From assembly GCA_020073305.1 (NCBI GenBank), contig JAIQFK010000001.1, positions 62,001 through 126,000 on the forward strand: DNA of 64,000 nucleotides. Reading direction: 5' to 3'. Position 1 is the stretch's first letter. Each line of letters opens with the position of its first letter. Source of the DNA: Terriglobia bacterium. Lineage in GTDB: Bacteria; Acidobacteriota; Terriglobia; Bryobacterales; Bryobacteraceae. Under the pieces are notes generated by a model. The model was not told the DNA's origin. It saw only the letters and a program-made list of their open reading frames with translations, and did no database searches. The position numbers and the translations under genes are program-made. Shown here piece by piece: positions 37,181 to 54,359 of this stretch.

Positions 37181-40100
37181 TTATTGATGCTTAGCGAGCC
37201 GGCGGAAATATTCGGCGATGGCTTCGGCGTATCCGGGCGGAGGCGGTTGAGACGCGCCGCTGCGCACGCTGCCGCTCTGGTCGGTGTCAGCGAGCCGGCG
37301 CAACTTCAGTTCGACCTCTTCCACGCCGCTCACGAGGCTGGCGACAATCTGATCGAGCCGTTCGGGTCTGGCCGCGATGAGCCGCGGATCGAGGCCCTGC
37401 ATCTGGCGCATGAGATCCTGGACGTCGCGGGAAATCTCATGCGGCACGTCACGATTTCCGCGGAGCATCTGATCGAGCTGCGCGAGATCGCGGATGCCCT
37501 CACGGATGGTGCGTTCGGCGTCAGCCGGGTTGATGCCGGGGCCCCCGAAGCTCTGCGAGTCACTGCCGCCGCGGCTGGATGCGGCGCCGGGAGATTGGCT
37601 TCCCGGCTCGGCGCCGGCGGGCGTTCCCGTTGCGGATTGCTGCTGCCCCGGTTGCTGGCCGGGTTGCTGGCCCGAACCCTTTTGCTGTTGTTGCTGCTGC
37701 CCTTGACGGCCCTGCTCGCGGCCTTGGCCCTTCAGTTGTTCAAGTTGCTCGCGCAGCCGTTCAGTCCGGCCCAGCGCGGCTTCGAGATCATTTCCGCCGT
37801 TCTGGTCCCGGTTCAGTGCGCTCTGGGCTTGGCGAACGCGGTCGTGCAGTTGGTTCAAGCCCTGCGTGATCGCAGGCTGGCGAGTCAGGGCATAGGGTGC
37901 GTAGCCCTGCCGCATGGCTTCGACACTCCAACCCATCTTCATGCCCAAGTCCTGCTTCTGGGCCTCCGCCAGCGCGTCACGCAGTTTGCTGGATGCCGAA
38001 GGCTGCGTGCCGGCCATCTCGCGAGCGGTCTGCTGCATTTCTTTCTCGATGCTGGTGAGTTCATCGATCATCTTCTTCTCTTCAGCCTGCATCGATTCCG
38101 ACTGGCGGCGTGAAGTTCCGGGCTGCAAAAGGCTGCGCCGGCCCTGCTCGTCCTGGCCGGAATTGCCGAACGTCTGGCGCATGTGCTGCTCGAAGTCTTG
38201 CTGCGTCTCGGCAAGCTGTTGGGTTCTCCGCGCCAGGTCGTCCATCTGCTCGCCGGCCTGCTGCCTTCGTTCTCCGGCGAGCATTTCGCGCGCCTCGCGG
38301 AGTCGTTCGGCCGCGCGCCGGGACTCGGCCTCGCTCTGTGGAGTTCCCTGGTTCTGCGCCGCACCCGCGTTCTGCATATCGCGCGCGGCTTCGGTGAGCC
38401 GTTCCAGCGCGCGATTCAGCGCGGAAGCCTGCCCGCCGGAGGATTGCCGGCCCTGCTGGCCTTGTTGGCCCGATTGTCCCTGGGTCTGGCGGCTCTCCTG
38501 CTCTTGTTGTCCCGGTTGCGACTGCTGGCTCCGCGCGCTCGACTGGCTGCGCGCCAACTGCTCCATCTTGCGGCGAAGTTCTTCGGCTTCGCGCCGCAGC
38601 ATTTCTTGCTGCCAGCGCTGCTGGTAGGCCTGCTGGTTCTGCTTTTGCTGATTGGCCAGCTCCTGCTGGCGGCGTGCCAGTTCCTCGAGCTTGGCGAGCG
38701 CTTCTTCGATCTCCTTTTGCCGCTGGTCCGGTGACGCGGCGTTCTGGCCCGACTCGAACTGATTTTTCTCGCGGTCCAGTTCGAGGTCAAACAGGCCTTC
38801 GAGATCACGGCCCGCGCCTCCGCCTCCGCCGCCCCGGTTGCCGAACGCTACCTGAATATCGCGGAATGTGGCTTCGGCGCGCAAAAGGTGCTGGAGCGAT
38901 TTCTGTTCCGGCGGCAGCGCGGCCTGCCAATCGCCGCCGCGCAGCTTCTCGATCGCAGGACCCATGACCTCGATCGCCTGCGCCATGTCGTCTGCGAATT
39001 TCTTGAAGGCGGGGTTTGCCGAACTAAGGTCGCGGCTCTGCATGCGCCCGGCCAACGACTTGGCCTGGTCACGCAGCTTGGATTGGATCCCTGCCAGGAG
39101 CCTGGCGTTCTCTTCCGCTTCCGCTTTGTTCTTGGATTCGTTTTTGAGCTCGTTCCAGGTGGCGGCGATGATATCCTTCTGGTGCTCGGAGACCTGAGGC
39201 GCCTGCTCGCCTCCGCCTCCGCCGCCCATCTGCTGCGACTGGGAATAATTCCGCTCAAAGGGCTGCGCTTCGATGAAGAAGATGTCGCTGCGGTTTGTGG
39301 TGAGGCCGTTCTTCGCCGTGGCGTAGAAGCTCACGATATCGCCGGGCACCAGCTTGTAATCCTCGAGATAGATCGTAGTGGAGCCCTCGGCCGCCTTTCC
39401 ATTTTTGCCGCCAAGATCCACCGTCTTTTCGCGCCCGCCGTTCACCGAATAGTGAAGATCCAAGCCACGCAAGGCGAAGTCATCGTGCGCTTCGACATGG
39501 ATCGTGACCTCTTCAATGGGATTCACTTTGGCGTCGCGGCCCGGCCGGGTGATGCGCACGCTGGGCGGGAGTGCGCTCCGCACCTCGATGAAATAATCGT
39601 TGCTCAGGCGAACCATGTCGCCGTGCTCCACGGCGGTAGCCACGTGGTAAACGCCATCCTTCTGCATAGGCACGCGTGCCATGCCGTCGCGCAAGTCGAA
39701 CCGGGACCCGTCGTCCAGCAGCAGGGCGCCATTCGCGAGCGGCTGGTCGGTTTCGATTTTCACTTCAGCCTCGGTGCCTTGCACGGCGCGGAGATCGCCG
39801 CCCGGGTCTTCCACGGTGTCTTTCAGACCGGTCCAGCCGGGATAGTGATAGGTGACGCGAAGCTTCTTCACCGCAGGCAGGTCGACAACATTCATGCGGT
39901 ACTGCTTCGAGCGAACGCTGCCCGCTTCCACGTAGTAGTCGAATGCTTCCGGCACGCCGGCAAAAAGAAATTCAAAGCCGGACGATCCGGGTTGCGGGCT
40001 CATGAGCGCCTCTTCCCATTTCGACGAGCTGTGGAATTTGGCAAAAACGCGGACAAGGTTGGTCTGAAAGCCCAGCGGGCGCGCGGTCACGAGCTGGTCG

Positions 40101-40696
40101 GACTTGCGGCGGGTAGTGTGATCGCCGGGTTGGACCTGCACTTCATAGAACGGCATCTGGTTGCGCGGAACTGCGCCCCAAAGCAGGGAAGTCCCGTAGC
40201 CGAGGAAACCCGGGCCCGAAGTACCGAGCCAAACAAGCGCCACCAGCGAGACCATGCCCGCCGACGCAAAGCTCAAGATGCGCTTCCGGGGCGCAATGCG
40301 TTCGGGCTGGGCTTCACGCGTCACGTCGAGGGTGTCAGCGGCGAGCAGTTCCAGAAATGGATCGGGGCGTTCGGCACGCTCGGCGAAGGTCACCAGGCGT
40401 TGCTCGAATTGGGGGCACTGCTGTTCGGCTTCCCGGGCGGCTTTGCGGCGATTCAGACGAAGGAGCGGCAACACCAGGCCCGCTCCCACGGCACCGGCCA
40501 GCGCGAGAAACAAAATCAACCGCGCTCCCAGCACACTGCCGGATGAAAATGCGAAGTAGTTCGCCACCAGGGCGCCAGCAAGGGTAAAAGCCAGGGCCGC
40601 GACGGCCGCCAGGGCAACGCCACGCGATACCGCCAGCAGGCGCAGGCGGCGTTCCAGTTGCCGCAGATATTCCGTCAGCCCATTGAGCGGATTCAT
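37181..40696 (-). CDS. DUF4175-family large membrane protein, Gln-rich coiled coil
   Basis: This 1171-residue protein has two N-terminal membrane helices, a third one about residue 150 ('ILSFASAGMVSLVALVWLG'), and then repeated beta domains ('GWTGLKDTVEDPGGDL', 'DGVYHVATAVEHGD') that fit DUF4175 architecture. The C-terminal 650 residues are a long low-complexity coiled coil rich in Gln, Glu, Arg and Ala, with runs such as QQQQQQ and QPGQQPGQQ. No catalytic motif is seen. Its start overlaps the stop of the BatA-like gene by four nt (ATGA), so it closes the MoxR/VWA cluster. A large protein binding MoxR-VWA clients at the membrane is an inference. Confidence 0.8.
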   Translation of the reverse strand: MNPLNGLTEYLRQLERRLRLLAVSRGVALAAVAALAFTLAGALVANYFAFSSGSVLGARLILFLALAGAVGAGLVLPLLRLNRRKAAREAEQQCPQFEQRLVTFAERAERPDPFLELLAADTLDVTREAQPERIAPRKRILSFASAGMVSLVALVWLGTSGPGFLGYGTSLLWGAVPRNQMPFYEVQVQPGDHTTRRKSDQLVTARPLGFQTNLVRVFAKFHSSSKWEEALMSPQPGSSGFEFLFAGVPEAFDYYVEAGSVRSKQYRMNVVDLPAVKKLRVTYHYPGWTGLKDTVEDPGGDLRAVQGTEAEVKIETDQPLANGALLLDDGSRFDLRDGMARVPMQKDGVYHVATAVEHGDMVRLSNDYFIEVRSALPPSVRITRPGRDAKVNPIEEVTIHVEAHDDFALRGLDLHYSVNGGREKTVDLGGKNGKAAEGSTTIYLEDYKLVPGDIVSFYATAKNGLTTNRSDIFFIEAQPFERNYSQSQQMGGGGGGEQAPQVSEHQKDIIAATWNELKNESKNKAEAEENARLLAGIQSKLRDQAKSLAGRMQSRDLSSANPAFKKFADDMAQAIEVMGPAIEKLRGGDWQAALPPEQKSLQHLLRAEATFRDIQVAFGNRGGGGGGAGRDLEGLFDLELDREKNQFESGQNAASPDQRQKEIEEALAKLEELARRQQELANQQKQNQQAYQQRWQQEMLRREAEELRRKMEQLARSQSSARSQQSQPGQQEQESRQTQGQSGQQGQQGRQSSGGQASALNRALERLTEAARDMQNAGAAQNQGTPQSEAESRRAAERLREAREMLAGERRQQAGEQMDDLARRTQQLAETQQDFEQHMRQTFGNSGQDEQGRRSLLQPGTSRRQSESMQAEEKKMIDELTSIEKEMQQTAREMAGTQPSASSKLRDALAEAQKQDLGMKMGWSVEAMRQGYAPYALTRQPAITQGLNQLHDRVRQAQSALNRDQNGGNDLEAALGRTERLREQLEQLKGQGREQGRQGQQQQQQKGSGQQPGQQPGQQQSATGTPAGAEPGSQSPGAASSRGGSDSQSFGGPGINPADAERTIREGIRDLAQLDQMLRGNRDVPHEISRDVQDLMRQMQGLDPRLIAARPERLDQIVASLVSGVEEVELKLRRLADTDQSGSVRSGASQPPPPGYAEAIAEYFRRLAKHQ

Positions 40697-42705
40697 GCTG
40701 CCTCTTTATCCACGGTGAGGTGCTGATTTCCCACCAGCGACTCTGCTACAGCCAGCACCAGGACGACCATCATGACGTACCACCAAAAGTCCAGAGGCTT
40801 CCGCTCCTGCTCCGTGCCGCCAGCGGGTTGCGCGCGAGACCCCTGACCCGTATTCTGCCATAGCGCCAGCGTTTCCGGTGGAATCACGTAGAAATCCGAC
40901 TCGCGCCGGTCCGGATTCACGGCTACGAGCTCGTTGTGCCGGTTGGGCCGCCGCACCTCGTAGAACCCCTCCTGGTTGAGGGCGATGTTCGTCGCGCGAG
41001 TGGATTCGGCGAGGGTCAGGGCGCGCGCGCCGCCTGGATCGATTACCTCGATGGCGGATCCTGAAGGCTCACGCCCGCTTCGAAGGTCAAGGTACGAGCC
41101 CACGGTCAGGTTGGCGGGACGGTCATCCAGCCGGGCGAGGTAGTGCGCGGTTTCATCCACGAAAGGCACAAACCCTGCATGCAGCGGGAAATCGTTGGAT
41201 AGGTTGTCGAACGTAGAGGCAAATACGAGCACACGGCCGTCGCCAACGGATTGCTCGACCAGCAGGGGTGTTTCATCCGACAGTTTGGCCAGCACGCGGG
41301 CAGTACCCGTCTCGATGCGAACCGAGCGATACACTCTCACGCCGGCCCAGGCGCCGGCCTGGTGTGTCGAGGGATGCGACGCATCCAGCGTGGCAATGGT
41401 TTCGAAGTGCCCCGCATCGCGAGACGTGTAACGCGTCTCACGGATCTCCAGATCCACAGCCGGAATGCGTTTGCGACCGGCTGAAGAAGGCCCCAGTGCG
41501 ACCAACAGCGAGCCACCGGCGCGGACGTATCCGCGCAGCGCTTGTTCGAAGGCGGGGGGAACATCCGGCACATCGGAAAGCACGACGAAAGCAAATCGAG
41601 AAAGAGGCAGGGTGGCGGCCTGGTCAGGGCTGGCGGCTTCGAGAGTGAAAGCCGCATCGCGGGAAGACAGGATCGCGGTGCGGTAATAGAGCAGATCGCG
41701 CCCGTCGCGCGCCGTGTGTACAAACAGCGCGGGACCAGGATCGGAACGTTCCATCGAGAAGTAATAATGATCGTCAGCCGGGAATGCGTCCGCGGAGTCA
41801 ATGCGGACTTCGCCCCGATTCATCCCGTACGGCGCATCCATGCCGATGAACTCGGTGGTAGCGCGTCCGCCTGCGGGGACGTCGAGCGGATTCGATGCCA
41901 GTTCGCGCCCATTGAGCCAGAGCGAGACGCGCCGGCGCCCGGTGGCGCCGCCAGAAGCGATCACGGTGGCCTGGATACGGACTTTCTTTGGATCGTAGAG
42001 CCGCCGGGGCGCGGTGACACTTTCAACCGCGAAGTTGGCCAGCGTCTGGGTGACCACGGGATGCGGCGTCAAGCTGGCGCCTTGACCCAATTCGAGGTCG
42101 GCGAAGTTTGGCGGCATCGACGACTTTTGCATGTCTGAAAACAGGTGCGCTTCTACGGGCAGGCGCGCGGACTGCTCGAGAGACTTGAGGGCGCGCGCGA
42201 GTTCGGCGTAAGAGCTGTGATCGTCGGATGGCCGAATGGCGCGAATTTGGGCGCGCAGACCGGATGGGTCAACGGACGGCTCACCCATCAGGTGCGCCTG
42301 CGAGCCGAAAGCCAGGACCAGCCCGCGATCTTCGGGGCGCAGGCCGGAGAGCGCCGCGGCTGCGGCCGATTTGGCGCGCTCGAGCCGATCGCCCTGGCGC
42401 ATGCTGAACGAGTTGTCCACCGCCATCACCAGCAGTTTGCCGCCGCCCGCCGAGGCGACTGTCGTCGAATTCACGAAAGGCCTGGCAAATGCCAACGCTA
42501 GTAGCACGATGAGCGCAATCCGGAGCGCGAACAGCAGCAAATATTTCAGCCGCCGGTGCTTGACGGAGCTTTGCACGCGCCGCTCAAAGAACATCAGCGA
42601 GCTGAAGGGCAGAGGCGTGGTTTTGTGCTGTTTCAGCAGGTGCAGCCAGACCGGCAGGCCGACGGCTGCGAGCCCCGCAAGAAACCATGGCGCCAAAAAT
42701 CCCAC
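40693..42705 (-). CDS. BatA-like VWA membrane protein
   Basis: The GTG start at 42705 overlaps the DUF58 stop by one base; the protein has 670 residues. The N-terminus 'FLAPWFLAGLAAVGLPVWLHLL' plus 'LPFSSLMFFERRVQ' is the BatA aerotolerance signature (TIGR02226-type). A second helix follows, then a VWA domain with MIDAS 'MAVDNSFSMRQGDRLERA' (DxSxS). The large C-terminal part carries beta domains and 'FEQALRGYVRAGGSLLVALGPS' (a glutamine amidotransferase-like fold), and ends in a membrane helix. It would work with MoxR and DUF58 to act on envelope clients. Confidence 0.88.
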   Translation of the reverse strand: MGFLAPWFLAGLAAVGLPVWLHLLKQHKTTPLPFSSLMFFERRVQSSVKHRRLKYLLLFALRIALIVLLALAFARPFVNSTTVASAGGGKLLVMAVDNSFSMRQGDRLERAKSAAAAALSGLRPEDRGLVLAFGSQAHLMGEPSVDPSGLRAQIRAIRPSDDHSSYAELARALKSLEQSARLPVEAHLFSDMQKSSMPPNFADLELGQGASLTPHPVVTQTLANFAVESVTAPRRLYDPKKVRIQATVIASGGATGRRRVSLWLNGRELASNPLDVPAGGRATTEFIGMDAPYGMNRGEVRIDSADAFPADDHYYFSMERSDPGPALFVHTARDGRDLLYYRTAILSSRDAAFTLEAASPDQAATLPLSRFAFVVLSDVPDVPPAFEQALRGYVRAGGSLLVALGPSSAGRKRIPAVDLEIRETRYTSRDAGHFETIATLDASHPSTHQAGAWAGVRVYRSVRIETGTARVLAKLSDETPLLVEQSVGDGRVLVFASTFDNLSNDFPLHAGFVPFVDETAHYLARLDDRPANLTVGSYLDLRSGREPSGSAIEVIDPGGARALTLAESTRATNIALNQEGFYEVRRPNRHNELVAVNPDRRESDFYVIPPETLALWQNTGQGSRAQPAGGTEQERKPLDFWWYVMMVVLVLAVAESLVGNQHLTVDKEAA

Positions 42706-43592
42706 TACATTCTCCCTTGCCGCACGGCCAGGTATTCGCGCAGGCCTTCATCCAGCGGACGCCCGGTGTTCATAAGGAAATAATCCAGGCCCGCCGCGCG
42801 AGCCCGCGTCTGAAGCGCCGCGATGTGGGCATCCATCTTCTGCCGGTATTCGTGGCGCACGTATTCGGGCGATACCTCGATGCTGTCTTTGGTCTCGACG
42901 TCGATGAGCAAGGCGGGTTCGCGCAGACTGGGCGCGATCTCCTGGGGATCGAGCACGTGGAACAGGATCACGTCGTTGCCGCGGAAACGCAGTGGCTCGA
43001 TGGTCTTGATGATGGTTTCCGGCTGCTCGTAAAAGTCGGACAACACTACCACCATTCCACGCCTCTTGAGAAATGCCTGGAAATGCGCGAACGGTTTGGC
43101 GAAATCCGTGCGCGTGCCGGCCTCGGCTTTTTCGATGGCATGCAGCAGGCGGAACAGTTGTCCCTGGCGGGTCGAGGGCGCAACGTAGTTGACGACATCC
43201 TGGTCGAAGACGATCAGGCCCACAGCGTCGCGCTGTTCGTGCGCCAGATAGCAGACGGATGCGGAGACGAAACGCGCGTAATCGAGTTTGTTCACGCGCG
43301 CCGAGCCGAACGACATGGAGGCGCTGGTGTCGAGCAGGATGAGAACTTGGGAATTAGTCTCACCGCGATAGCGCTTGAGATAACAGCGCTCGGTGCGCGC
43401 GAAGACGTTCCAGTCGACGTGCCGCAGGTCATCCCCGGGCGTGTAAGCGCGGTACTCGGCAAACTCCTGGCTGAAGCCGAAGTCCGGCGAGCGGTGCAGC
43501 CCGGACACGAACCCATCGACCACGGTCTTGGCGACCAGGTCGAGCCCGGAAAGTCCGGCGAGCGTGGCGGGATCAAGAAATCGCTGGAGCAT
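42705..43592 (-). CDS. DUF58 domain protein (VWA-like)
   Basis: This 295-residue protein starts at ATG 43592 ('MLQRFLDPATLAGL'). The core DUF58 text 'EFAEYRAYTPGDDLRHVDWNVFARTERCYLKRY'-type region is complete, and a VWA-like MIDAS follows: 'LLDTSASMSFGSARVNKLDYA' (DTSAS). DUF58 proteins pair with MoxR ATPases in nearly all bacteria. No ribosome-binding site lies upstream, and the 123-nt gap to moxR contains a strong hairpin. It overlaps the BatA-like start by one base. Confidence 0.9.
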   Translation of the reverse strand: MLQRFLDPATLAGLSGLDLVAKTVVDGFVSGLHRSPDFGFSQEFAEYRAYTPGDDLRHVDWNVFARTERCYLKRYRGETNSQVLILLDTSASMSFGSARVNKLDYARFVSASVCYLAHEQRDAVGLIVFDQDVVNYVAPSTRQGQLFRLLHAIEKAEAGTRTDFAKPFAHFQAFLKRRGMVVVLSDFYEQPETIIKTIEPLRFRGNDVILFHVLDPQEIAPSLREPALLIDVETKDSIEVSPEYVRHEYRQKMDAHIAALQTRARAAGLDYFLMNTGRPLDEGLREYLAVRQGRM

Positions 43593-43715: not shown

Positions 43716-44741
43716 TTACTCCCTCGGCGCTGCCTTCCAATCCAGCACTTGCCGCAGGATATCGTCGGCGCGCAGGCGGTCGGATTCGGCGTGGAAGTTG
43801 AGCAAGATGCGGTGGCGCAGAATGGGGATAAACAGCACGCGGATATCTTCGTAGGAGACGTGGTAGCGGCCCTTCTTGAGGGCGCGAGCCTTTCCGGCGA
43901 GCACCAGGAATTGCGCGGCACGGACGCTGGCGCCGTAGTTCACGTACTTTTGGACGAAGTCCGGCGCCGTTTCGTCACGGCTGCGCGTCGCGCGCACCAG
44001 GTCAATCGCGTACCGCGCCACCGATTCCCCGATGGGCACCATGCGCACGAGCTGCTGGAAATCCAGAATCTCGCCGGCATTGGTCACCGGGTCCGCCTGA
44101 GCGACGTGCGTGGTGGTGGTTAAATCGATCACCTGCATTTCTTCCTTCGGGGTCAGGTAATCGAGCACGGTGTTGAACAGGAACCGGTCGAGCTGGGCTT
44201 CAGGCAGCGGATAGGTTCCTTCGAGCTCGATCGGATTCTGCGTGGCCAGCACGAAGAACGGCGCCGGCAGCTTGTAGTTGTTACCGCGCACGGTGCAGGC
44301 CAATTCCTGCATGGCTTCAAGCAGCGCTGATTGCGTCTTGGGGGGCGTGCGGTTGATTTCGTCGGCCAGCAGCACGTTGGCGAAGATGGGGCCTTGGACG
44401 AAGGTCCACGTGCGGTGGCCGGTGGTGGTGTCCTCTTCAATGATGTCGGTGCCGGTGATGTCCGAGGGCATCAGGTCGGGCGTGAACTGGATGCGCTTGA
44501 ACAGCAGGCCCAGGCTCTGCGCCAGCGTTCGCACCAGCAGCGTTTTGGCCGTACCGGGCAAGCCCGTGATTAGGCAGTGGCCGCCCACGAAGAGCCCGAT
44601 CATGATCTGCTCGAGAACTTCGTCCTGCCCGACGATCACGCGGCGGACCTGCCGGACAATCTCCGCGTCCACCTCGCGAAATCGGGCGATGCGCCCTTTT
44701 AACTCTTCCGACTGCAACTGAGACGTGGCTAAAGTTGACAT
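43716..44741 (-). CDS. MoxR-family AAA+ ATPase
   Basis: The ATG at 44741 ([11 protein letters not shown]) has AGGAAGAG upstream and lies 7 nt after the TPR-peptidase stop, giving 341 residues. The 90 residues before it in the open frame are Arg/Pro/Cys-rich and do not belong. '[37 protein letters not shown]'-type region holds Walker A (GLPGTAKT). Walker B is '[22 protein letters not shown]', and '[26 protein letters not shown]' has the sensor 1 and MoxR signature. It should remodel client proteins with VWA partners, here BatA, DUF58 and the 749-residue VWA protein. Confidence 0.95.
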
Positions 44742-44748
44742 GCTCTTC

Positions 44749-46860
44749 CTATTTTCCTTGTTCTGATTGAGACATCTCGAGCAGCATTTTCTGGGCGGGC
44801 CGGTATCCGGGCGCGGCCTCGAGCGACAGCAGCAGCTCGTCGCGCGCGTTGTCGGGCCGGCTGGCGCGGCGATAGGCCTTCGCGAGGTTGAAGTGCGCCG
44901 ACGCCGGATCGACCGGTGTCGCCGCCAGCACCGCCTGATATTCGCGAATCGCGCCGTCGATGTTGTTTCCGGCAAACCACAGGTCGCCCAAGCGGCGGTG
45001 CAGGTCCTCATCGACGGGGTCGATGTAGTTCAGCCGGTCTAGCGCGGCGGCGGCATCGGCGGGACGGCCGGCTTCGACCAGCAATCCGGCCAGCTTCTTC
45101 AGCGTTTCAGGGCTGCGTCCGCCCACCTTGGCATAGTGCTCCAGTTCCTGGATGGCTGCGCGCGGATCGCTCAACGCAAGATACGCATCGGCGCGGAACT
45201 CGTAGAGGTTGCCGGGCTCGACGTAGTCCGGATAGATGTCGCGCAGAGCGGCGCTCTTATCGATGACTTGCTGATTCTCGCCGGCTTTAGCCATGCGCGC
45301 CACTTCCCTGATCCCCTTGCGCCACTCATCGAAGCGCTCCACGACGGTTTTGGTTTCGGCGTCCACTATGGCCAGAAATTTCTTGTCAAACTCTTCGGGC
45401 TTCATCCCCAGTTCCTTCTCGATGACTTGGGCGGTGGTGGTGTTGGTGGCAAAGTCGTGCATCATGGCGAGCAGCTTTTGGTAGCCCCATTCGTGCGCGA
45501 TGAATCCGCAGACGCGGCCTGCCTGATAATACGAGACCACCACCTGTGTGGGATAGGTAGGATGCACGAAGCCGCGATCCATTTCCGCGACGGGAAGCAG
45601 CTTCTTTTCCTTGATGGCGGCGATCACGTGCGGGTCCAGCCGGTCGCCCCATTCCGGGGAGGCGGCGGTCTCTTCGTACACCGCCATGCCTTCAGTGAAC
45701 CATCGCGGCACACGATGGTGCGTGGCCGTGAGCACGTACACATGGCTCAGCTCGTGCCACATGGTGCTCGCCCAGTGGAACGTGCCTGGCTTGCGGCTGG
45801 AGGGGCTATCCATCGCCACGACGTAGCCGAAGGTCACCCCCAGCGCACCCAGGCCTGGCATGCCCATGGTGCGCACGGCAAAGTCTTCGTGATCCGGATA
45901 AACCTCGACTTGCACCGGCCGATCGAGCTTGAGGCCATACTTTTTCTCGTACGTGGCGAGCGCACGTTTCAATTCGGATTCAAAGTACGGACGAAGCAGC
46001 TCGGCTTCCTTCTTGTGAAGCCTGAGAATGGTGTCGCTGGTCCGGTAGGTCACGAAGTTCTTGTAGCTGTCGATCAAGCGCAGGGTGTTGACGGTGGCGG
46101 CATCGCGGTAGTGGTGTTCGTAGCTGTCCTGCAATTGTGTGCGTGCCTCATCCTCAAAACCCAGGCGCATCAGATTGATGCCAAGCTCGGAGCGCGCGCT
46201 CCAGAGATCGGGCTGGAGTTCCAGGGCCTTGCGGTAGTACGCGATGCCCTCTTCATAGCGGCGGTTGAGGACGAAAGAGTGTCCAGCCAGCGCATAAGCC
46301 TGCCCGTAGCGCGGATTCTTCGCGAGGACGCGGCTCATCCAAGGGCTGTCGGGCTGATCGTTGAGCCAGTCGATGGTGGCGTGAATCGCCAGGGCGTCGA
46401 GGGAATCGGGCGAAATCGCCAGCGCTTTGTCGGCTTCCTCGGCGGCGCGCGCGGGGTCGTTGTCTTCAAGCGCCAGACGCGCGAGGAGTAAACGGGCTTC
46501 GGTCAACTTTGGATCAGCGGCCAGCGCCTGCCCGGCGAGGTCGACGGCCTTGCCCTGAAAGTCCTCCGCGGCCACCAGCGCCAAGCCCAGCAGCGCGCCG
46601 GGATGATCCTTCTTGATTTCCAGCGCCTCTTGAAAGAGCTTGGCCCCCTCGGCGCCATTGAACCGTTCGAGGAAAAGCCGGCCCCAGCGCACGCGGTAAT
46701 CCGGATTTTTCGGATGCGACGCCACCAGAGCGCGAAACTCGTTGTTGGCAGCCTCGTATTGCTGTTGCTTCCACAACGCTTCGGCACGCTCGAGGGTTTG
46801 AGCATGAACCGCGAGGAACGAAATTACCGCAGAGGCGCAGAGACGCAGAGCAGATCTCAC
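44749..46860 (-). CDS. TPR protein with gluzincin metallopeptidase domain
   Basis: The GTG at 46860 overlaps the caspase-like stop by 4 nt (GTGA). The protein has 703 residues, a signal peptide ('LRLCASAVISFLAVHAQ'), TPR units over residues about 25-260, a peptidase MA-like domain with zinc motif 'TMWHELSHVYVL' (HELSH) followed by 'PRWFTEGMAVYEE', and further TPR units up to the C-terminus. The arrangement resembles Peptidase_MA_2 proteins of Acidobacteriota. It should be periplasmic. The catalytic Glu is in HELSH and the third zinc ligand is probably the Glu in 'TEGMAVYEE'. A substrate is not evident. Confidence 0.85.
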   Translation of the reverse strand: MRSALRLCASAVISFLAVHAQTLERAEALWKQQQYEAANNEFRALVASHPKNPDYRVRWGRLFLERFNGAEGAKLFQEALEIKKDHPGALLGLALVAAEDFQGKAVDLAGQALAADPKLTEARLLLARLALEDNDPARAAEEADKALAISPDSLDALAIHATIDWLNDQPDSPWMSRVLAKNPRYGQAYALAGHSFVLNRRYEEGIAYYRKALELQPDLWSARSELGINLMRLGFEDEARTQLQDSYEHHYRDAATVNTLRLIDSYKNFVTYRTSDTILRLHKKEAELLRPYFESELKRALATYEKKYGLKLDRPVQVEVYPDHEDFAVRTMGMPGLGALGVTFGYVVAMDSPSSRKPGTFHWASTMWHELSHVYVLTATHHRVPRWFTEGMAVYEETAASPEWGDRLDPHVIAAIKEKKLLPVAEMDRGFVHPTYPTQVVVSYYQAGRVCGFIAHEWGYQKLLAMMHDFATNTTTAQVIEKELGMKPEEFDKKFLAIVDAETKTVVERFDEWRKGIREVARMAKAGENQQVIDKSAALRDIYPDYVEPGNLYEFRADAYLALSDPRAAIQELEHYAKVGGRSPETLKKLAGLLVEAGRPADAAAALDRLNYIDPVDEDLHRRLGDLWFAGNNIDGAIREYQAVLAATPVDPASAHFNLAKAYRRASRPDNARDELLLSLEAAPGYRPAQKMLLEMSQSEQGK

Positions 46861-47795
46861 TTGTCCAGCTCCTCCTGCGTCTTGGCCAATTCCAACAGCA
46901 GCGCCGTGAGCCGCTTCCGGTATTGGTCGGGCGCCATGACGGCTTTGTTATATTTCAGCTCATCGATTTGCTGCTCGAGCTGATCTTTCTTCTCGAACAG
47001 TTTTCGTTTTTCGGGGCTGCCGGCAATGGATTTCGCTGATCCCAGCCGCACCAGCGGAAACGCCGCGGCGCGCAAGCCTTCGCTGTTTTCGACCGAAGGC
47101 GCGCGGACGCCTGTGCCTTTGCCCGTGTCTTCGAGCAGCGGGTGCTCGGTGGCGAGCCGTTTCTGCGACTCGTAATACTCGGCGACCTTGTGCTCCGCGT
47201 AGTGGAATGCTTCGAGCGCGGAAATCGTTTCGTTCTTGTCGGTATCGGCGGCAGGGTCGCGCAGCCCCTCCACCCAGAAGCGCGGAAACACGGTGGCGTT
47301 GCGCTCGGTGCCGGTCTTGGTCGCCGTGATGACCACGCGATTCGGTTTGCTCAGCGCGTTGATGGCGCCTCCGCTCGCGCTGGTCATGTTGACCACAAGC
47401 TGGCGCGTGGCCGGTACGCGGTCGAGTAACGCAGCCAACTCGGTGGCGGACAGGTCCGGGCCGGGCAGGTTGATCTTGTACTCCACACCATCATGGCTGC
47501 CGTGTCCGATCAACATGATCACGAGCGAATCCTGCGACTTAGCCTCGCCCGCGATCTTCTCCAATGCCGCGCGCACGTTGGCGCGAGTGGCCGCGGGCCC
47601 CTTCAGGGTCTCGACGCTGGCGTCACCGCCGGCCGACTTGAGAATCGACTCGATTTCTCCGGCCCACATCGCAAACCGCTGCTCATACTCCGGCTCGCCA
47701 CCGAGTCCGGCGATGGTGAGGTAGTAGGTGGTGGCTCTCAGCGAGACGGGCAGGAAGAGCAACGCAGCCACGGCGAAGAGATGAGGAGACGTCAC
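46857..47795 (-). CDS. Caspase-fold (C13/C14-like) protein with Ser at the catalytic Cys
   Basis: The GTG at 47795 overlaps the stop of the VWA gene by four nt (GTGA), giving 312 residues with a signal peptide ('PHLFAVAALLFLPVSLRATTYYL'-type region). The family text 'SLVIMLIGHGSHDGVEYKINLPGPDLSA' contains the catalytic His, and the next conserved site reads 'VVNMTSASGGAI' where active members have a Cys before xSG(G). Here the base sequence AGC encodes Ser, so a cysteine protease seems lost. The rest ('DTDKNETISALEAFHYAEHKV') fits the family, and a coiled coil ends the protein. It could be a binding protein rather than a protease. Confidence 0.8.
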   Translation of the reverse strand: MTSPHLFAVAALLFLPVSLRATTYYLTIAGLGGEPEYEQRFAMWAGEIESILKSAGGDASVETLKGPAATRANVRAALEKIAGEAKSQDSLVIMLIGHGSHDGVEYKINLPGPDLSATELAALLDRVPATRQLVVNMTSASGGAINALSKPNRVVITATKTGTERNATVFPRFWVEGLRDPAADTDKNETISALEAFHYAEHKVAEYYESQKRLATEHPLLEDTGKGTGVRAPSVENSEGLRAAAFPLVRLGSAKSIAGSPEKRKLFEKKDQLEQQIDELKYNKAVMAPDQYRKRLTALLLELAKTQEELDK

Positions 47796-50041
47796 ACCGC
47801 CCCCCACTTCCTTCGCAGCAGCCACTCCGAGCCGCGCAACAGCAGCGCCGCCAAAAACACCACCGGCATGTCCCAGAGGTCCTTGGTTTCGCGGGTGGTG
47901 ATGCCGGCTTCGGAATAAGAGATATCTTCCGCCAGCCGCGAGGCGCGATCCGCCGGATAATAGTGGCCCCCGGTCTCTTCCGCCAGCTTTTCGAGCAATT
48001 CGCGATTCTGCGTGACGTGAAAGTTTTCGGCCACGCCATTCTCGCGCCGGAAGACCAGAACATCGCGGCCGAGTTCCTGCTGTCCCTGGCGGGCGACGAT
48101 CTCCGCCATGTAGGAACCGGGCTGAGCGGCGTTCCAGTCCGCCGTGTAGACACCTTCGTCGAGCGGGGCCGGCTTCAGAGAAACACTGTCGGCAGCGCCC
48201 TCCGGGCCGGCGATGTGCGCTTCCACGGTGGCCGTCGCCGGACGAAAACTCTTGTCGCGCACCTCCACTCGCAGCGGCACGTGGCTTTCGTCGGAAAGAA
48301 TCTGGCGCTCCGTGGACGCCATGACGCGGCCGGGTGCATCCGCCACCAGCCATCGCAGAAGTTGCTGCCAGAACATCTCGTGCGTCTTGTCGGCCAGCGG
48401 CTGCATCATCTGCCACCGCCAACTTCCGCCAGTTGCAAAAACCGCGGTGCGGCCCCTGCCGTAGCGCTGCAAAACCAGAAGCGGATGCCGCCGTCCGCCG
48501 GCGTTCATTTCGAGCAGGGTCAGCGCCCCTGGCTTGGCCTCACCTACCTGTTCATAGTCTGCGAGAGCGGGCATGGTTTTCCAGCGCTCGACATTGCGCT
48601 TGGGATCTTCCTCGAACCGGCAGATGACGCTCTGGCTTCCCTGTGCGGTGAGATCGGCGGTGGCAGGGTCGCGATGAAACGTGTCTTTCGTCTCAGGAAT
48701 GCGGACCGGCAGCAGATCCGCCAGCGGAGAATGCGCCCAGCCGCCATCCGCCAGCGATGCCCGGCCTCCCAGAAACAGCACGCCGCCGCCGCGCCGGTCG
48801 ACAAATTCGCGTATCAGCTCCTGCTGCTGCGGGGTGAAATATCCAGCTTCCACGCTGCCGATGATCAGGCCTTCGTAACTGAAAAGATCCTCAGCCTTGG
48901 AGGGAAATCCGTCCTCCAGCCGCTTGCGGTCCTCCATGTCCACCGCCTGGGTGTAGATTTTGTTCTGCGTAGTGCGGACCAGAGACGAGATCTGCAGGCT
49001 GCGGTCGTCTTCGATGCCGCGGTGGATGAATTTATATTCCCAGCGCGGTTCGCCCTCCATGTAGAGGATGCGCGGCTTGGCGGAAGTGACGTTTACCAGC
49101 CGGGTCACGGCGTTGTTTTTCAGATTCTCTTCGCCGGGAAGAGTCTCAATCGAAAATTGCAGGCTGCGCGGTCCTGCGAGGCCCGCATTGAAGACCAGTG
49201 ATTCGGTTTGCGGCGTCCCGTCAGCCTTGAACGTAAATTCCCGCGAGGCCAGCAACCGGCCGCCTTCGCGGACGGCCAGGCGGCCTTTGTCACGCGTGTA
49301 TCCGAACTGGCGGAAGTTCACCTCGGCGCTCAGCCGCGAATCGGCCAAAGCGCGCGCCGGCACCGCCACATCCGAAATCTCCACATCGCGGGCAAGCTTC
49401 TCGCGCCCGAAACCAACGGTGTGCACGGGCACCCGCGTTTGCCGGATGTGAGCGATGGTATCCAGTCCAATGCCGCCGGAGTTGTCCGAGCCGTCGCTGA
49501 GCAGCACAACGGCTCCGAGGGGCAACGTCGATGCCTCGGCCAGCACCTGCTCCAGGCTCGGAGCGATGCGCGTTGCCGGCTGGTCGCCCGCGAGCTGATC
49601 GGCCTTCTGTATTCGCTCCAGGTTGTTTCCGAACCGATAAAGGCGCACCTGGAACTTCTTGGCGAGATCCGGAAGCAAGCGGTTGGCTAGAAGTTTCTCC
49701 GCCTGCGCCAGCCGCGTGCTTCCGTTCTCCGATGTCGACATGCTACGCGAATCGTCAACCACTACGGCGACCACATTCTGCTGCGGGCGCAAGGTCGCGA
49801 TGCTGATGGCCGGGTGCCACAGCAGAAGCAGCACCAGCGCGACCAACGCCGTCTCCAGCAGGCACACCACCGCGGGACGTAATCCTGAGAGCAATCCGCG
49901 ATGCCGGGAGACGTGCCAGGCGAGGGCTCCGGCAGCCATCAGGATGGCCAGCCCTAAGAGCCATGTCGGCCACGGCGCCAGAAATACAAATTGGCCACGG
50001 GAAAAAACCGCCGCCGGATACTTGAACAGAAATTCGAACAT
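47792..50041 (-). CDS. Large VWA membrane protein with glutamine amidotransferase-like fold
   Basis: This 749-residue protein starts at ATG 50041. Two N-terminal membrane helices ('WLLGLAILMAAGALAWHVS', 'PAVVCLLETALVALVLLLLW') precede a VWA domain with MIDAS 'VVVDDSRSMSTSENGSTRLAQA'-type text (DDSRSMS). The centre has 'RILYMEGEPRWEYKFIHRGI' and 'EGLIIGSVEAGYFTPQQQELIREFVDRRGGGVLFLGGR'-type amidotransferase-like region, and the end holds one membrane helix ('VVFLAALLLRGSEWLLRRK'). It is the first gene of the seven-gene cluster, with a promoter expected in 50042-50282. It resembles the 'BatB/CatA-like' long VWA proteins of Acidobacteriota. Confidence 0.85.
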   Translation of the reverse strand: MFEFLFKYPAAVFSRGQFVFLAPWPTWLLGLAILMAAGALAWHVSRHRGLLSGLRPAVVCLLETALVALVLLLLWHPAISIATLRPQQNVVAVVVDDSRSMSTSENGSTRLAQAEKLLANRLLPDLAKKFQVRLYRFGNNLERIQKADQLAGDQPATRIAPSLEQVLAEASTLPLGAVVLLSDGSDNSGGIGLDTIAHIRQTRVPVHTVGFGREKLARDVEISDVAVPARALADSRLSAEVNFRQFGYTRDKGRLAVREGGRLLASREFTFKADGTPQTESLVFNAGLAGPRSLQFSIETLPGEENLKNNAVTRLVNVTSAKPRILYMEGEPRWEYKFIHRGIEDDRSLQISSLVRTTQNKIYTQAVDMEDRKRLEDGFPSKAEDLFSYEGLIIGSVEAGYFTPQQQELIREFVDRRGGGVLFLGGRASLADGGWAHSPLADLLPVRIPETKDTFHRDPATADLTAQGSQSVICRFEEDPKRNVERWKTMPALADYEQVGEAKPGALTLLEMNAGGRRHPLLVLQRYGRGRTAVFATGGSWRWQMMQPLADKTHEMFWQQLLRWLVADAPGRVMASTERQILSDESHVPLRVEVRDKSFRPATATVEAHIAGPEGAADSVSLKPAPLDEGVYTADWNAAQPGSYMAEIVARQGQQELGRDVLVFRRENGVAENFHVTQNRELLEKLAEETGGHYYPADRASRLAEDISYSEAGITTRETKDLWDMPVVFLAALLLRGSEWLLRRKWGAV

Positions 50042-51191: not shown

Positions 51192-52502
51192 CTACAGCTT
51201 CATCCGCTCCAGCTTGCGGTAGAGCGTCTTGCGCTCGATTCCCAGAATCTGCGCGGCGCGGCTCTTATTGCCGCCGGTTGCTGCCAGGACACGCCGGATC
51301 TGTTCGGCCTCGGTTTCGGCCAGCGTTTCGGCCGGGTGGTCCTGCGCTTCCATGGCCTCGAGCGCGTCATGGACGGCTTCGCTGTCGATCCGGTCATTGG
51401 GCGCCAGGATGATCAGCCGCTCGATCAGATGCTGCAGTTGCCGCACATTGCCTGGCCAGGCCTGCTCCTCCATGGCCTTCAAACCGGATTCGTTGAGCCT
51501 CACATCCCGGCTGTAGCGCAGGTTGTATTTATTGACGAAAAACCGCGCCAGCAGCAGAACATCGCCGCGGCGGTCGCGCAAGGGGGGAATCGTGATGCGA
51601 ACTACGTTCACGCGAAACCAAAGGTCCTCGCGAAACTTGCCTTCCTCTACCATCTTTTGCAGGCTGCGATTGGTGGCCGCAAGCACGCGCACATCCACCT
51701 GTTTGGACTTGGACGAGCCCAGCGGCCGGATTTCCCGCTCCTGCAGGAAGCGGAGCAGCTTCACCTGGAAGCCCAGATCAACGTCGCCGATCTCATCGAG
51801 AAGAACGGTACCGCGGTGCGCCGCTTCGAACACGCCCATGCGATCGCGGTCCGCACCGGTGTAGGCGCCTTTCAGCGCGCCAAATAATTCGCTCTCCAGC
51901 AGTGTGGGGGCAATGGAGCCGCAGTCCACCGGCACGAACGGCTGCGAAGCTCGCGGGCTGTTGCGGTGAATCATGCGCGCCACCAGTTCTTTGCCCGTGC
52001 CGGTCTCGCCCTCGATCAGCACGGTAGCGTCGGTGGGCGCGGCGCGTGAAACCGTTTTGTAAATCTCGACCATGGACGCCGAACTGCCGATCATCTCGGT
52101 CTCCGGCAGTTCCTCCCGCTCGACTTCGTCGGTCTCCGGAGTCCGCGAAGCCTCGGCGCGCTTCACGGTTTCGAGCATGCGATCGAGATCGAATGGCTTG
52201 GCGATGTAGTCGAAGGCGCCGCCTTGTGTCGCCGCCATTACCGTCTCCATGGTGCCGCGGGCGGTCATGAGAATCACCGAACACGATGGATCTTTCCGTC
52301 GCGCGGCTTCGAGGACATCGAGCCCGGTGCGCGCGTCAATATAAATATCGGAGATGACGATGGGGTATGCGGTCTGGGTCAGGCGTTCCAGAGCTTCATC
52401 GGTGGAGGACACCGCATCCACGGAGTACCCTTCCAGTTCCAGGAAGTTGACGATCGTGGTGCGCACGCCAGCGTCGTCTTCAACTATGAGTAAACGTCCC
52501 AT
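51192..52502 (-). CDS. Sigma-54-dependent response regulator (NtrC family)
   Basis: This 436-residue protein starts at ATG 52502. The receiver domain has the acidic pocket 'VEDD' and the phospho-Asp in 'VISDIYIDART' (D52). The AAA+ domain has Walker A 'GETGTGKE', the sigma-54 contact loop 'GAYTGA' (Phe replaced by Tyr) and Walker B 'GTVLLDEIG'. A Fis-like helix-turn-helix ends it ('NKSRAAQILGIERKTLYRKLERM'). It should activate sigma-54 promoters when phosphorylated by the adjacent kinase. The start lies 3 nt after the stop of the kinase gene. Confidence 0.93.
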   Translation of the reverse strand: MGRLLIVEDDAGVRTTIVNFLELEGYSVDAVSSTDEALERLTQTAYPIVISDIYIDARTGLDVLEAARRKDPSCSVILMTARGTMETVMAATQGGAFDYIAKPFDLDRMLETVKRAEASRTPETDEVEREELPETEMIGSSASMVEIYKTVSRAAPTDATVLIEGETGTGKELVARMIHRNSPRASQPFVPVDCGSIAPTLLESELFGALKGAYTGADRDRMGVFEAAHRGTVLLDEIGDVDLGFQVKLLRFLQEREIRPLGSSKSKQVDVRVLAATNRSLQKMVEEGKFREDLWFRVNVVRITIPPLRDRRGDVLLLARFFVNKYNLRYSRDVRLNESGLKAMEEQAWPGNVRQLQHLIERLIILAPNDRIDSEAVHDALEAMEAQDHPAETLAETEAEQIRRVLAATGGNKSRAAQILGIERKTLYRKLERMKL

Positions 52503-52505
52503 CTC

Positions 52506-54359
52506 TCAATTTGCCGCGAGTGGCTTCGGCGCCGCCGTCTGCACGGCCGGCAATATTAGGGTAAAACAAGAGCCCTTGCCCGGGGCGCTGGTCACCGCAA
52601 TCTTTCCGCCGTGCTGGAGAATAATCTGCTCGACGATGGACAGCCCGATGCCGGTGCCCGCCTCGCCCGATTGCACAGCTTTGTGGGTCCGGTAAAACTT
52701 CTGGAAAATGTTGCGGACTTCCTTTTGATCCATGCCGATGCCTTGATCCTTGACAGACACCTCGAAGCGTTCTCCATCGCGCCCGCCGTAAACCGTCACC
52801 TCCGTTTTGGAGGGGGAATATTTGATCGCGTTAGTCAGCAGATTATAAAAAGCGTACTCCATCAGTTCGCGGTCCCCGGTGAGCTGCTCATCGCCGAGTT
52901 GATTCATGTCGATGCGAATTTGCTTCCGCTCCGCCAGCGGCGAGGCGCGCTCCACGCAGCCCGCCATGACGGCTCGCACCGAGAAGTGGTCCCTCTTCAA
53001 TTCCATTTCGCCCGCGGAGAGCCGCTCCACGTTGAGAAACATTTCGATCATGCGGCCCAGCCGCTTCGATTCGGAGTGAATGAGCTCGACGATCTGCTGG
53101 CGTTTCTCATCCGGCAGGGCATAGCGGCTCATCAGCTCGCTCGATCCCTGGATGGCGGTCAGGGGCGTGCGCATCTCGTGCGTGACGAACTGAACGGCGT
53201 GCTGATACCGGTCGCGTTCGGCCTCGGATTTGACCAGGCGCCGGCGCACGTACAGATGCTGCCATGCCGCCGCCGTCACAATGGTGAGCCATGCGGTCGA
53301 GGCGCCCGGTGAAAACGGAAACACGGCGCCCCGGGTAAAGGCGGCATAGGGGACCGCGTGGGCCACGGCGAGAACGCCCAGTGCAGCAAGGTTACTCCAC
53401 CATCCCGATAGCCAGGCGAAGGCTACTCCCACAACCGCGGCCAGCAACATGCAGAGTGTCACCACCGACCACGCCGGCGCGCTCGTCAGGAATCTTTGCT
53501 GCGCGATCGTCTCATACGCGTTGGCCAAAACTTCCACGCCCGCCATCGGAGTTGGCGAGTACGGTGTCGGCCACCGGTCCTTCGCGGCGGTCTGTGCCGT
53601 GACCCCGGCGAAAACGATCTTGCCCGCGAACTGGCGCGCGCGGGCGGGATCATCCCGCAGTTGCTTGAGTGAGATGGATGGAATGTTCACGGTATCGGGT
53701 GGGGCAAAGCGAATGCGCATACTACGATCGGTGGCGTTGGCAGCTGGAATCCGCATGCTTCCCAGTTCCAGATCGCGCGGCGTTTCCACAATGGTGGCGC
53801 CGCGGCTGACACGGTAAGCTTCGAGCGAGAGCGCCCAACGCCGGTCGTGACCGGCAGCTTTTTCGAGAGCCAGCGTGCGGCCAACGCCATCCGGATCGAG
53901 GTCCAAGTGAACGTGGCCCACCGCCGCGGCCCAGCGGCGGAAGCGGGGCAGTGGATCGTCCCAGCCGCTTTTCGCGGTCAGGTCGCACGGCAGGATGAGA
54001 TTGTGAGTGGCGTGGAAGGCGTCTTCGAGTGTTTTGGCGGACTTCTCATCGGCGGTGTTGTCGGCGGGTATCACGTCGACCGCTACTGCTCTGGGGGACG
54101 CGGCAGCGATGCGTGTCAGGCCCTCTGCCAAAGCCATGCGCAAGCCTGGCAAGCCGCCGAAATCGTGCAGCGAGGGTTCGTCGATGGCGAGAATGGCCGA
54201 TTCGGGCTGCCAAGGCGCCGGCTGGTAGAGGAGGAAAATTGAGTCGTAAACGTAGTTGTCGATCCGGGTGCCAAGCGGCGTCCAGCTGGCGGCGAGCGCC
54301 ACAGCGAAAGCCGCCGCCAGCAGCGCCGCGTACGCGAAAGTGTGCCTGCTCGGCGACAT
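52506..54359 (-). CDS. CHASE2-domain sensor histidine kinase
   Basis: This 617-residue kinase starts at ATG 54359. A first membrane helix ('AYAALLAAAFAVALAASW') is followed by an extracellular CHASE2 domain (residues about 30-295; 'YDSIFLLYQPAPWQ', 'AVDVIPADNTAD') and two or three membrane helices up to residue 370. The kinase core has H-box 'VTHEMRTPLTAIQGSSEL', N-box 'NLLTNAIKYSP', G1 'DQGIGMD' and G2 'GTGIGLS'. It should sense an external signal and phosphorylate the sigma-54 regulator encoded 3 nt downstream. All catalytic motifs are intact. Confidence 0.93.
   Translation of the reverse strand: MSPSRHTFAYAALLAAAFAVALAASWTPLGTRIDNYVYDSIFLLYQPAPWQPESAILAIDEPSLHDFGGLPGLRMALAEGLTRIAAASPRAVAVDVIPADNTADEKSAKTLEDAFHATHNLILPCDLTAKSGWDDPLPRFRRWAAAVGHVHLDLDPDGVGRTLALEKAAGHDRRWALSLEAYRVSRGATIVETPRDLELGSMRIPAANATDRSMRIRFAPPDTVNIPSISLKQLRDDPARARQFAGKIVFAGVTAQTAAKDRWPTPYSPTPMAGVEVLANAYETIAQQRFLTSAPAWSVVTLCMLLAAVVGVAFAWLSGWWSNLAALGVLAVAHAVPYAAFTRGAVFPFSPGASTAWLTIVTAAAWQHLYVRRRLVKSEAERDRYQHAVQFVTHEMRTPLTAIQGSSELMSRYALPDEKRQQIVELIHSESKRLGRMIEMFLNVERLSAGEMELKRDHFSVRAVMAGCVERASPLAERKQIRIDMNQLGDEQLTGDRELMEYAFYNLLTNAIKYSPSKTEVTVYGGRDGERFEVSVKDQGIGMDQKEVRNIFQKFYRTHKAVQSGEAGTGIGLSIVEQIILQHGGKIAVTSAPGKGSCFTLILPAVQTAAPKPLAAN

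Follow-up and report, generated by a model that had tools for sequence, protein, structure and literature searches.

Family-wide loss of the catalytic cysteine in a legumain-like protein of a MoxR-VWA operon in Acidobacteriota

Active peptidases of the C13 and C14 families carry a catalytic His in an HG motif and a catalytic Cys, and a caspase-fold protein that has kept only the first raises the question of whether it still cuts and, if not, what it does. Such a protein is encoded in the window, by which we mean the whole stretch of 64,000 nucleotides analysed here, part of a genome of 6,975,661 bases. A preliminary description of this DNA noted that Ser takes the place of the catalytic Cys in a conserved block while the His of GHGSHDG is retained, and both points are confirmed below.

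Gene, fold and nearest relatives

The gene, here termed pseudo-C13 (46857..47795, minus strand, as are its parts and the six other module genes described below; 312 aa), begins with a GTG codon that overlaps the stop of the upstream gene VWA_GAT (47792-50041). RNA folding of the start region revealed nothing remarkable (z -1.6). The frame is considered a real gene because homologues were found in the same class (53-59% identity), elsewhere in the phylum (31-41%) and in the nearest named relatives (57-73%), the latter being seven loci (L031-L037) in acidobacterial metagenome-assembled genomes with Bryobacteraceae and Solibacter among their titles.

The protein opens with a putative Sec signal peptide (47733..47795), judged by eye, with the mature start set at TTYYLT. 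The AlphaFold2 model and its match to legumain 4nol assign a caspase/legumain-fold domain to mature residues 1-195 (47148..47732), and the model adds a C-terminal helix pair at residues 240-290 (46863..47015), which the structure comparison barely reaches. The protein is apparently secreted and a stand-alone domain. Within the fold, the catalytic-position His is mature His77 (codon 47502..47504, in GHGSHDG), and mature Ser118 (codon AGC, 47379..47381) occupies the catalytic-Cys position inside the conserved block VVNMTSASGGAI at 47361-47396, about 5 nt from the 47366-47400 originally assigned to it. An EF-hand-like loop, DTDKNETISALE (mature residues 163-174; 47211..47246), has a modelled helix on either side, and is followed by a second acidic loop, TEHPLLEDTGKGTG (47109..47150; family consensus about TEHAxLDDxGDGxG).

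The window protein has no match in NCBIfam or, above the model cut-offs, in Pfam, a single-sequence search of solved structures returned weak unrelated matches alone (E 0.79 and 0.94), and the window's own genome yields no PF00656 or PF01650 match. The AlphaFold2 model, built from 8 sequences, is of middling quality (mean pLDDT 73.8, pTM 0.66, with residues 194-215 and 230-237 below 50). Foldseek matched it to MALT1, legumain, GSU0716, metacaspases and caspases, with a best E of 2.1e-5 and TM-scores by query length of 0.28-0.47 among the matches listed. When the best matches were re-ranked with VIA, prolegumain 4nol came first (Z 17.4, rmsd 2.8 over 187 residues) and legumains and related asparaginyl endopeptidases took most of the top places; Arabidopsis metacaspase-4 followed close behind (Z 16.5), Z values within 1 being counted as ties. 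Profile-profile comparison of the family with C14 domains gave a probability of 97.8. At E<=0.1, Peptidase_C13 (PF01650) matches 41 of 78 family members, C14 (PF00656) five and C25 five; two relatives, L025 (31.3 bits) and L172 (30.6 bits), exceed the curated PF01650 cut-off of 22.8 bits, at which the window protein itself has no match. The predicted fold is therefore that of the clan CD caspases and legumains, as the preliminary description had proposed from C13/C14-like motifs, and C13 is modelled as the nearest branch because legumain tops the structure comparison, more than half of the members match C13 and two pass its cut-off.

Loss of the nucleophile and retention of an EF-hand-like loop

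Ser118 lies opposite the catalytic Cys in the profile match to Arabidopsis metacaspase-4 C139A, and again in the hhalign profile-profile comparison with C14 domains. The C14 set (9 sequences out of 30 loci, plus L097) was chosen by a Cys-requiring pattern, so that the comparison tests the register and not the frequency. Seven Cys-type relatives cover the column, and in five of them it is Cys (L161, L162, L185, L186 and L189), L185 and L186 being C13-like proteins from the same phylum. The Cys falls one column early in L160 and one column late, beside an insertion, in L159, while the alignment of an eighth relative (L187) to the family profile stops short of the column. A register error was considered on account of the two displaced relatives and rejected, as neither neighbouring column has a conserved Cys: column -1 holds only Thr, Ala or Ser (Cys in 0 of 96 rows), and column +1 holds Cys in 8 of 96 rows, or 10 of 126 in the larger set. 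For the 96-row count, L097, a Cys-type C14 protein with a short match, was dropped from 97.

Two of the Cys-type relatives lie on plasmids. In a Pseudomonas aeruginosa plasmid (L161, 837-2576), a Cys-type C13 domain annotated as peptidase C13 stands behind MORN repeats, and in a conjugative Enterobacter kobei plasmid (L162, 1375-2924), a Cys-type caspase-family gene adjoins an EAD1-domain gene in what looks like a small caspase-effector pair.

Homologues of pseudo-C13 were collected from phylum genomes, named genomes, relatives and one Gemmatimonadota plasmid, the search beyond the phylum covering a plasmid collection. The phylum search was positive in 86 of 297 genomes, G075 among them solely through a Cys-type C14 domain. 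The resulting alignment holds 126 rows, one per locus (124 distinct, with two identical pairs; the paralogues G041 C33 and G277 C29, and matches among the relatives that had no locus, were left out). The nucleophile column is Ser in 109 rows, Glu in five, Ala, Thr and Asn in three each, Pro in two and Gly in one, and Cys in none, whereas the catalytic-position His is present in 126/126. Ser occupies the column in 45 of the 46 rows of the window's own class set. The loss of the catalytic Cys is thus fixed throughout the sampled family. An alignment of homologues had been proposed as the test of such fixation, and it bears the proposal out, though Ser is the replacement in most rows and not in all. 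A private mutation or sequencing error is ruled out, since no family row has Cys at this column. So is a displaced nucleophile in the window protein, the other alternative that had been raised, since its mature part contains no Cys at all; across the family, 83 of the 126 rows have none anywhere in the aligned segment.

The history of the column indicates a preference more than a requirement. On the family tree, a quick one built without bootstraps and with the Ser column included, the column needs no fewer than 11 changes into or out of Ser, and among the Ser rows there were at least eight switches from one of the codon sets AGY and TCN to the other. The codon switches and the retention of Ser in 109 rows suggest that Ser is preferred, and its repeated gain or loss makes a family-wide Ser nucleophile unlikely. 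Among 281 columns ranked by conservation, the His is 2nd, the Glu at position 12 of the EF-hand-like loop 5th, the Asp at its position 1 7th, and the Ser column 43rd. This pattern fits a site that would favour a small polar residue with no need for a nucleophile. Of the two options in the preliminary description, binding without cutting is therefore favoured and a Ser nucleophile disfavoured, with a residue other than Ser in 17 of the 126 rows.

Departures from Ser are clustered in places. Five rows of one subclade (L058, L059, L075, L084 and L089) carry Glu, which is hard to reconcile with any nucleophile at this column, and L061 and L085 in it carry Ala. In one clade of eight rows, seven (L012, L014, L015, L016, L020, L027 and L062) have Cys at the +1 column, and in four of these seven Thr or Asn replaces the Ser; a displaced nucleophile is possibly present in this clade, as judged from the alignment.

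The EF-hand-like loop is conserved far more at its ends than is the Ser column. Glu fills position 12 in every one of the 126 rows, and Asp fills position 1 in 125, the remaining row having Asn; position 3 is D/N, position 5 N/D/S and position 9 S/T, each in 126/126. In the AlphaFold2 model, the loop sits between helices 145-158 and 172-195, so that the family shows the EF-hand loop pattern of Asp, Asn or Ser at positions 1, 3 and 5, Glu at 12 and two helices; the Pfam model EF-hand_5 (PF13202) matches just 4 of 78 members. Pseudo-C13 probably binds Ca2+ through this loop, to judge by its sequence. Comparable loops occur at the same place in the Cys-type relatives L159, L186, L187 and L189, and a variant in L185, so the loop probably predates the loss of the Cys. 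In the second acidic loop, which follows, Glu196 is invariant in the 126 rows; the window's copy lacks the latter half of the family's acidic pattern.

A conserved operon module and its known counterparts

Pseudo-C13 is one of seven genes on the minus strand. Upstream lies VWA_GAT (47792..50041), a membrane protein with a VWA and a GATase1-like domain (PF07090, 2.1e-12; VWA_2 at 0.0044 is below cut-off). Downstream follow TPR_PMA (44749..46860), a TPR protein with a Peptidase_MA-like metallopeptidase domain and the motif HELSH (PF13485, 4.1e-12), a MoxR-type AAA+ ATPase (43716..44750; PF07726, 5.4e-61), a DUF58/VWA protein (42705..43592; PF01882, 5.1e-44), a BatA-like VWA membrane protein (40693..42705; PF07584, 4.8e-16; VWA_2, 4.6e-11) and, at the end of the module, a DUF4175-like membrane protein (37181..40696; PF13779 at 0.0022, below cut-off). 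With a MoxR AAA+ protein beside DUF58 and BatA-like VWA proteins that carry a MIDAS, the module has the make-up of a Bat-like MoxR-VWA operon. By eye, pseudo-C13 and the TPR-metallopeptidase look secreted, and two VWA proteins look membrane-anchored. Upstream of the module, the window encodes what appear by eye to be an NtrC-type response regulator and a CHASE2-type histidine kinase (51192-54359), and the regulator gene also has a match near the module in L031.

Gene order was compared in 27 neighbourhoods, drawn from 20 of the 86 genomes, six of the seven L031-L037 loci (L033, on a 5-kb contig, was left out) and L158. In 23 of them the order is VWA_GAT, pseudo-C13, TPR-Peptidase_MA, MoxR, DUF58 and BatA-like, and the DUF4175-like gene closes the series where it was reached; in two of the 23 (L173 and L178), the TPR_PMA match is absent from between. 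VWA_GAT, MoxR, DUF58 and BatA-like were each found in 26 of the 27 neighbourhoods and TPR_PMA in 22, while a DUF4175-like match at 1e-8 was found in 17, some neighbourhoods stopping before the gene. VWA_GAT is the next module gene upstream of pseudo-C13 in 26 neighbourhoods, within 325 nt in 25. L171, L180 and L181 have a MoxR-first order with VWA_GAT and pseudo-C13 last, and in L175 TPR_PMA and pseudo-C13 are the sole module members in a 20-kb stretch; the pseudo-C13 proteins of these four loci all fall in one 22-row clade. TPR_PMA lies about 10 kb from pseudo-C13 in G253, G054, G125 and G028.

The partners keep their characteristic motifs. HExxH is present in 22 of 22 TPR_PMA homologues, the MIDAS residues D96, S98 and S100 of VWA_GAT are invariant in 22 of 22 rows, and the MIDAS start DxSxS is found in 24/26 VWA_GAT, 26/26 BatA-like and 26/26 DUF58 frames. 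Beyond the phylum, six module genes including pseudo-C13 were found on plasmid 1 of Gemmatirosa kalamazoonensis (L158), a 1.1-Mb Gemmatimonadota plasmid, where the N-terminal part of pseudo-C13 lies in another frame than the rest, indicating a frameshift or sequencing error.

Across the phylum, pseudo-C13 was found in 86 of 294 genomes, near full length in 85 and as a matched C-terminal fragment in G156. VWA_GAT accompanies it in 86/86 genomes and occurs in 2/208 others (Fisher p 5e-73), TPR_PMA in 86/86 against 1/208 (p 1e-74), and BatA-like in 85/86 against 7/208 (p 2e-64), kinship being ignored in all three tests. These searches scored the best few candidates per genome at cut-offs of 1e-10, 1e-60, 1e-60 and 1e-30, and the partner profiles (A3-A5) were built from loci that carry pseudo-C13, which favours linked homologues and flatters the figures. 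The impression from the neighbourhoods that TPR_PMA is often missing was wrong, as the genome-wide search recovered it in every genome with pseudo-C13. The preliminary description had placed a genuine metallopeptidase beside pseudo-C13, and the preserved HExxH and the joint presence agree with it; the linkage is real, and VWA_GAT is an equally strong partner. Within genus g5, all four genes are present in G036, G195 and G217 and none in G049, G061 and G094; this variation suggests that the module is gained or lost as a unit.

Ten of the 86 genomes (G028, G041, G077, G116, G159, G237, G253, G269, G277 and G293) have at least two pseudo-C13 matches, each with one copy in the 22-row clade, in which the turn mostly reads SFPF-like, not SGGF-like. 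The copy in G253 (L180), the sole one of these for which gene order was read, stands in a reversed block order. In G198 (C33:96725-101423), weak VWA_GAT and BatA-like homologues adjoin each other, and the searches at their cut-offs detected neither pseudo-C13 nor the TPR-metallopeptidase; the pair perhaps represents an earlier state of the operon. The window's own genome holds a weak second match to the family profile (E 0.003) in a 673-aa frame (G000 C30:22800-22958).

Inactive caspase-fold proteins are known, including in MoxR-vWA systems. Pseudo-orthocaspases (C14B) of cyanobacteria and alphaproteobacteria have Ser for Cys and are presumed inactive (PMC6426788). Their commonest state is reported to be His to Tyr with Cys to Ser, and they are linked to photosynthesis, whereas pseudo-C13 keeps the His in 126/126 rows, is C13-like and is linked to MoxR-VWA genes. 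The VMAP ternary conflict systems likewise join caspase domains to a core of MoxR and VWA proteins. About 70% of the caspase domains in effector position are described as inactive; those fused to the vWA component are mostly inactive, and for them peptide binding has already been proposed (PMC7159879). Pseudo-C13 differs in being stand-alone and in the company of DUF58, BatA-like, GATase-like and TPR-metallopeptidase proteins in a conserved order. PADLOC left six of the seven module proteins unmatched, MoxR weakly matching mad8.

Bat (Bacteroides aerotolerance)/MoxR operons share with the module a MoxR protein, BatA-like MIDAS VWA membrane proteins and a TPR protein, and have been proposed to form an envelope complex of unknown function; the excerpted account mentions neither a caspase-fold member nor a metallopeptidase (PMC3557215). 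NorQ/NorD and RavA/ViaA also pair a MoxR AAA+ protein with a VWA partner that remodel or assemble a client, but they are two-protein couples, with no pseudo-peptidase subunit in the excerpts of their descriptions (PMC9976466; PMC3893208). Likeness to legumain and the prokaryotic C13 peptidases (PF01650) includes, besides the fold and the members over the cut-off, the His motif, an SG(G) turn followed by an NR...(T/S)A segment in L185 and L186, and the loop seen in L159, L186 and, as a variant, L185; pseudo-C13 is unlike them in lacking the Cys, in its apparently secreted stand-alone form and in its MoxR-VWA operon. Among titles and abstract openings of the best-ranked literature matches, no account of a pseudo-peptidase of the C13 family encoded in an acidobacterial MoxR operon was found. 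The present case differs from the known ones in its C13 affinity, kept His, apparently secreted stand-alone form, EF-like loop and Bat-like MoxR module with a TPR-metallopeptidase.

A candidate recognition subunit of an envelope complex

We favour, with some reserve, the view that pseudo-C13 is a secreted, proteolytically dead protein of the legumain branch (C13, clan CD) and that, within an envelope complex of the MoxR-VWA kind, it acts as the recognition or adaptor subunit. Its most likely role is to bind proteins and not to cut them, because the Cys is lost family-wide, a calcium-loop-like motif is kept and the same chaperone-like and metallopeptidase genes accompany it. The VWA partners with which MoxR AAA+ proteins work are described as gripping a client peptide and remodelling the client (PMC7159879; PMC9976466). 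We infer the periplasmic location, Ca2+, binding, partners and order of events as follows. Pseudo-C13 would be a periplasmic neighbour of the VWA_GAT and BatA-like proteins, which are anchored in the membrane, and its old substrate cleft would recognise a client protein or peptide. The EF-like loop, with Ca2+, would stabilise one face of the protein and hold the flanking helices, and the client would be presented to VWA_GAT or the MoxR-driven VWA proteins, to the TPR-metallopeptidase, or to both.

This reading has to accommodate a His that is invariant in 126/126 rows, which would be odd for a site that has lost all its chemistry, as well as the retention of Ser in 109 rows and the clade with a +1 Cys in seven of its eight rows. 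In most members, the window's included, Ser118 and His77 might instead work together as a Ser-His pair, with activity lost in side lineages; the frequency of Ser, 45 of 46 rows in the window's class set, and the switches between the two Ser codon sets speak for such a hydrolase. We regard it as unlikely, however, given that the column turned over at least 11 times, to Glu, Ala and Pro among others, in an otherwise conserved protein, that 42 columns are more conserved, and that in other prokaryotic metacaspases, too, Ser is reported to replace the Cys more often than any other residue does, at 43% of substitutions (PMC3501461). The unchanging His beside a degenerate nucleophile column could also point to other catalysis on the same fold, in which the His would act with Asn88, Asp93 or Glu196 in a non-peptidase chemistry or in metal binding. 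His77, Gly91, Asp93, Asp163, Glu174 and Glu196 are invariant in the A2 alignment, and Asn88 nearly so, but Asp163 and Glu174 are accounted for by the EF-hand-like loop, fold-stabilising roles explain the invariance equally well, and no model of a known enzyme with such a residue set matched the protein. Such chemistry therefore seems improbable.

The neighbouring genes bear on two further explanations. According to the preliminary description, pseudo-C13 may direct the adjacent metallopeptidase to its substrates; taken alone, with the MoxR-VWA genes as mere neighbours, this would agree with the joint presence in 86/86 genomes against a single other occurrence of TPR_PMA, with HExxH in 22/22 homologues, and with L175, where the two are the only module members in 20 kb. 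It is nevertheless doubtful, since VWA_GAT co-occurs just as fully and adjoins pseudo-C13 with a start/stop overlap in the window, while TPR_PMA lies about 10 kb away in four genomes. Drift at the active-site column, and the fragment that is the only match in one of the 86 genomes (G156), could suggest a neutral relic with no function. That is very improbable for a protein present in 86 of 88 genomes with VWA_GAT and 86 of 87 with TPR_PMA, near full length in 85, with its His invariant and its loop intact.

The recognition-subunit reading extends, rather speculatively, to the module as a whole, which in Acidobacteriota, and in one or more members of the Gemmatimonadota, might be a hitherto unrecognised machine for protein quality in the envelope, comprising a MoxR ring, a Ca2+-dependent dead-legumain receptor and a TPR-metallopeptidase as cutter. 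If so, it would constitute a periplasmic AAA-driven relay of recognition and cleavage, in which a cytosolic MoxR acts through membrane VWA proteins and the receptor is of protease descent. Pseudo-C13 looks like an old, family-wide conversion of a protease into a non-cutting part, within a module gained or lost as one unit and next to a metallopeptidase whose motif is intact. From a dead legumain domain that retains an intact EF-hand-like loop, one would expect protein binding that depends on Ca2+, and the protein would give the poorly understood MoxR-VWA/Bat operons a defined periplasmic part.
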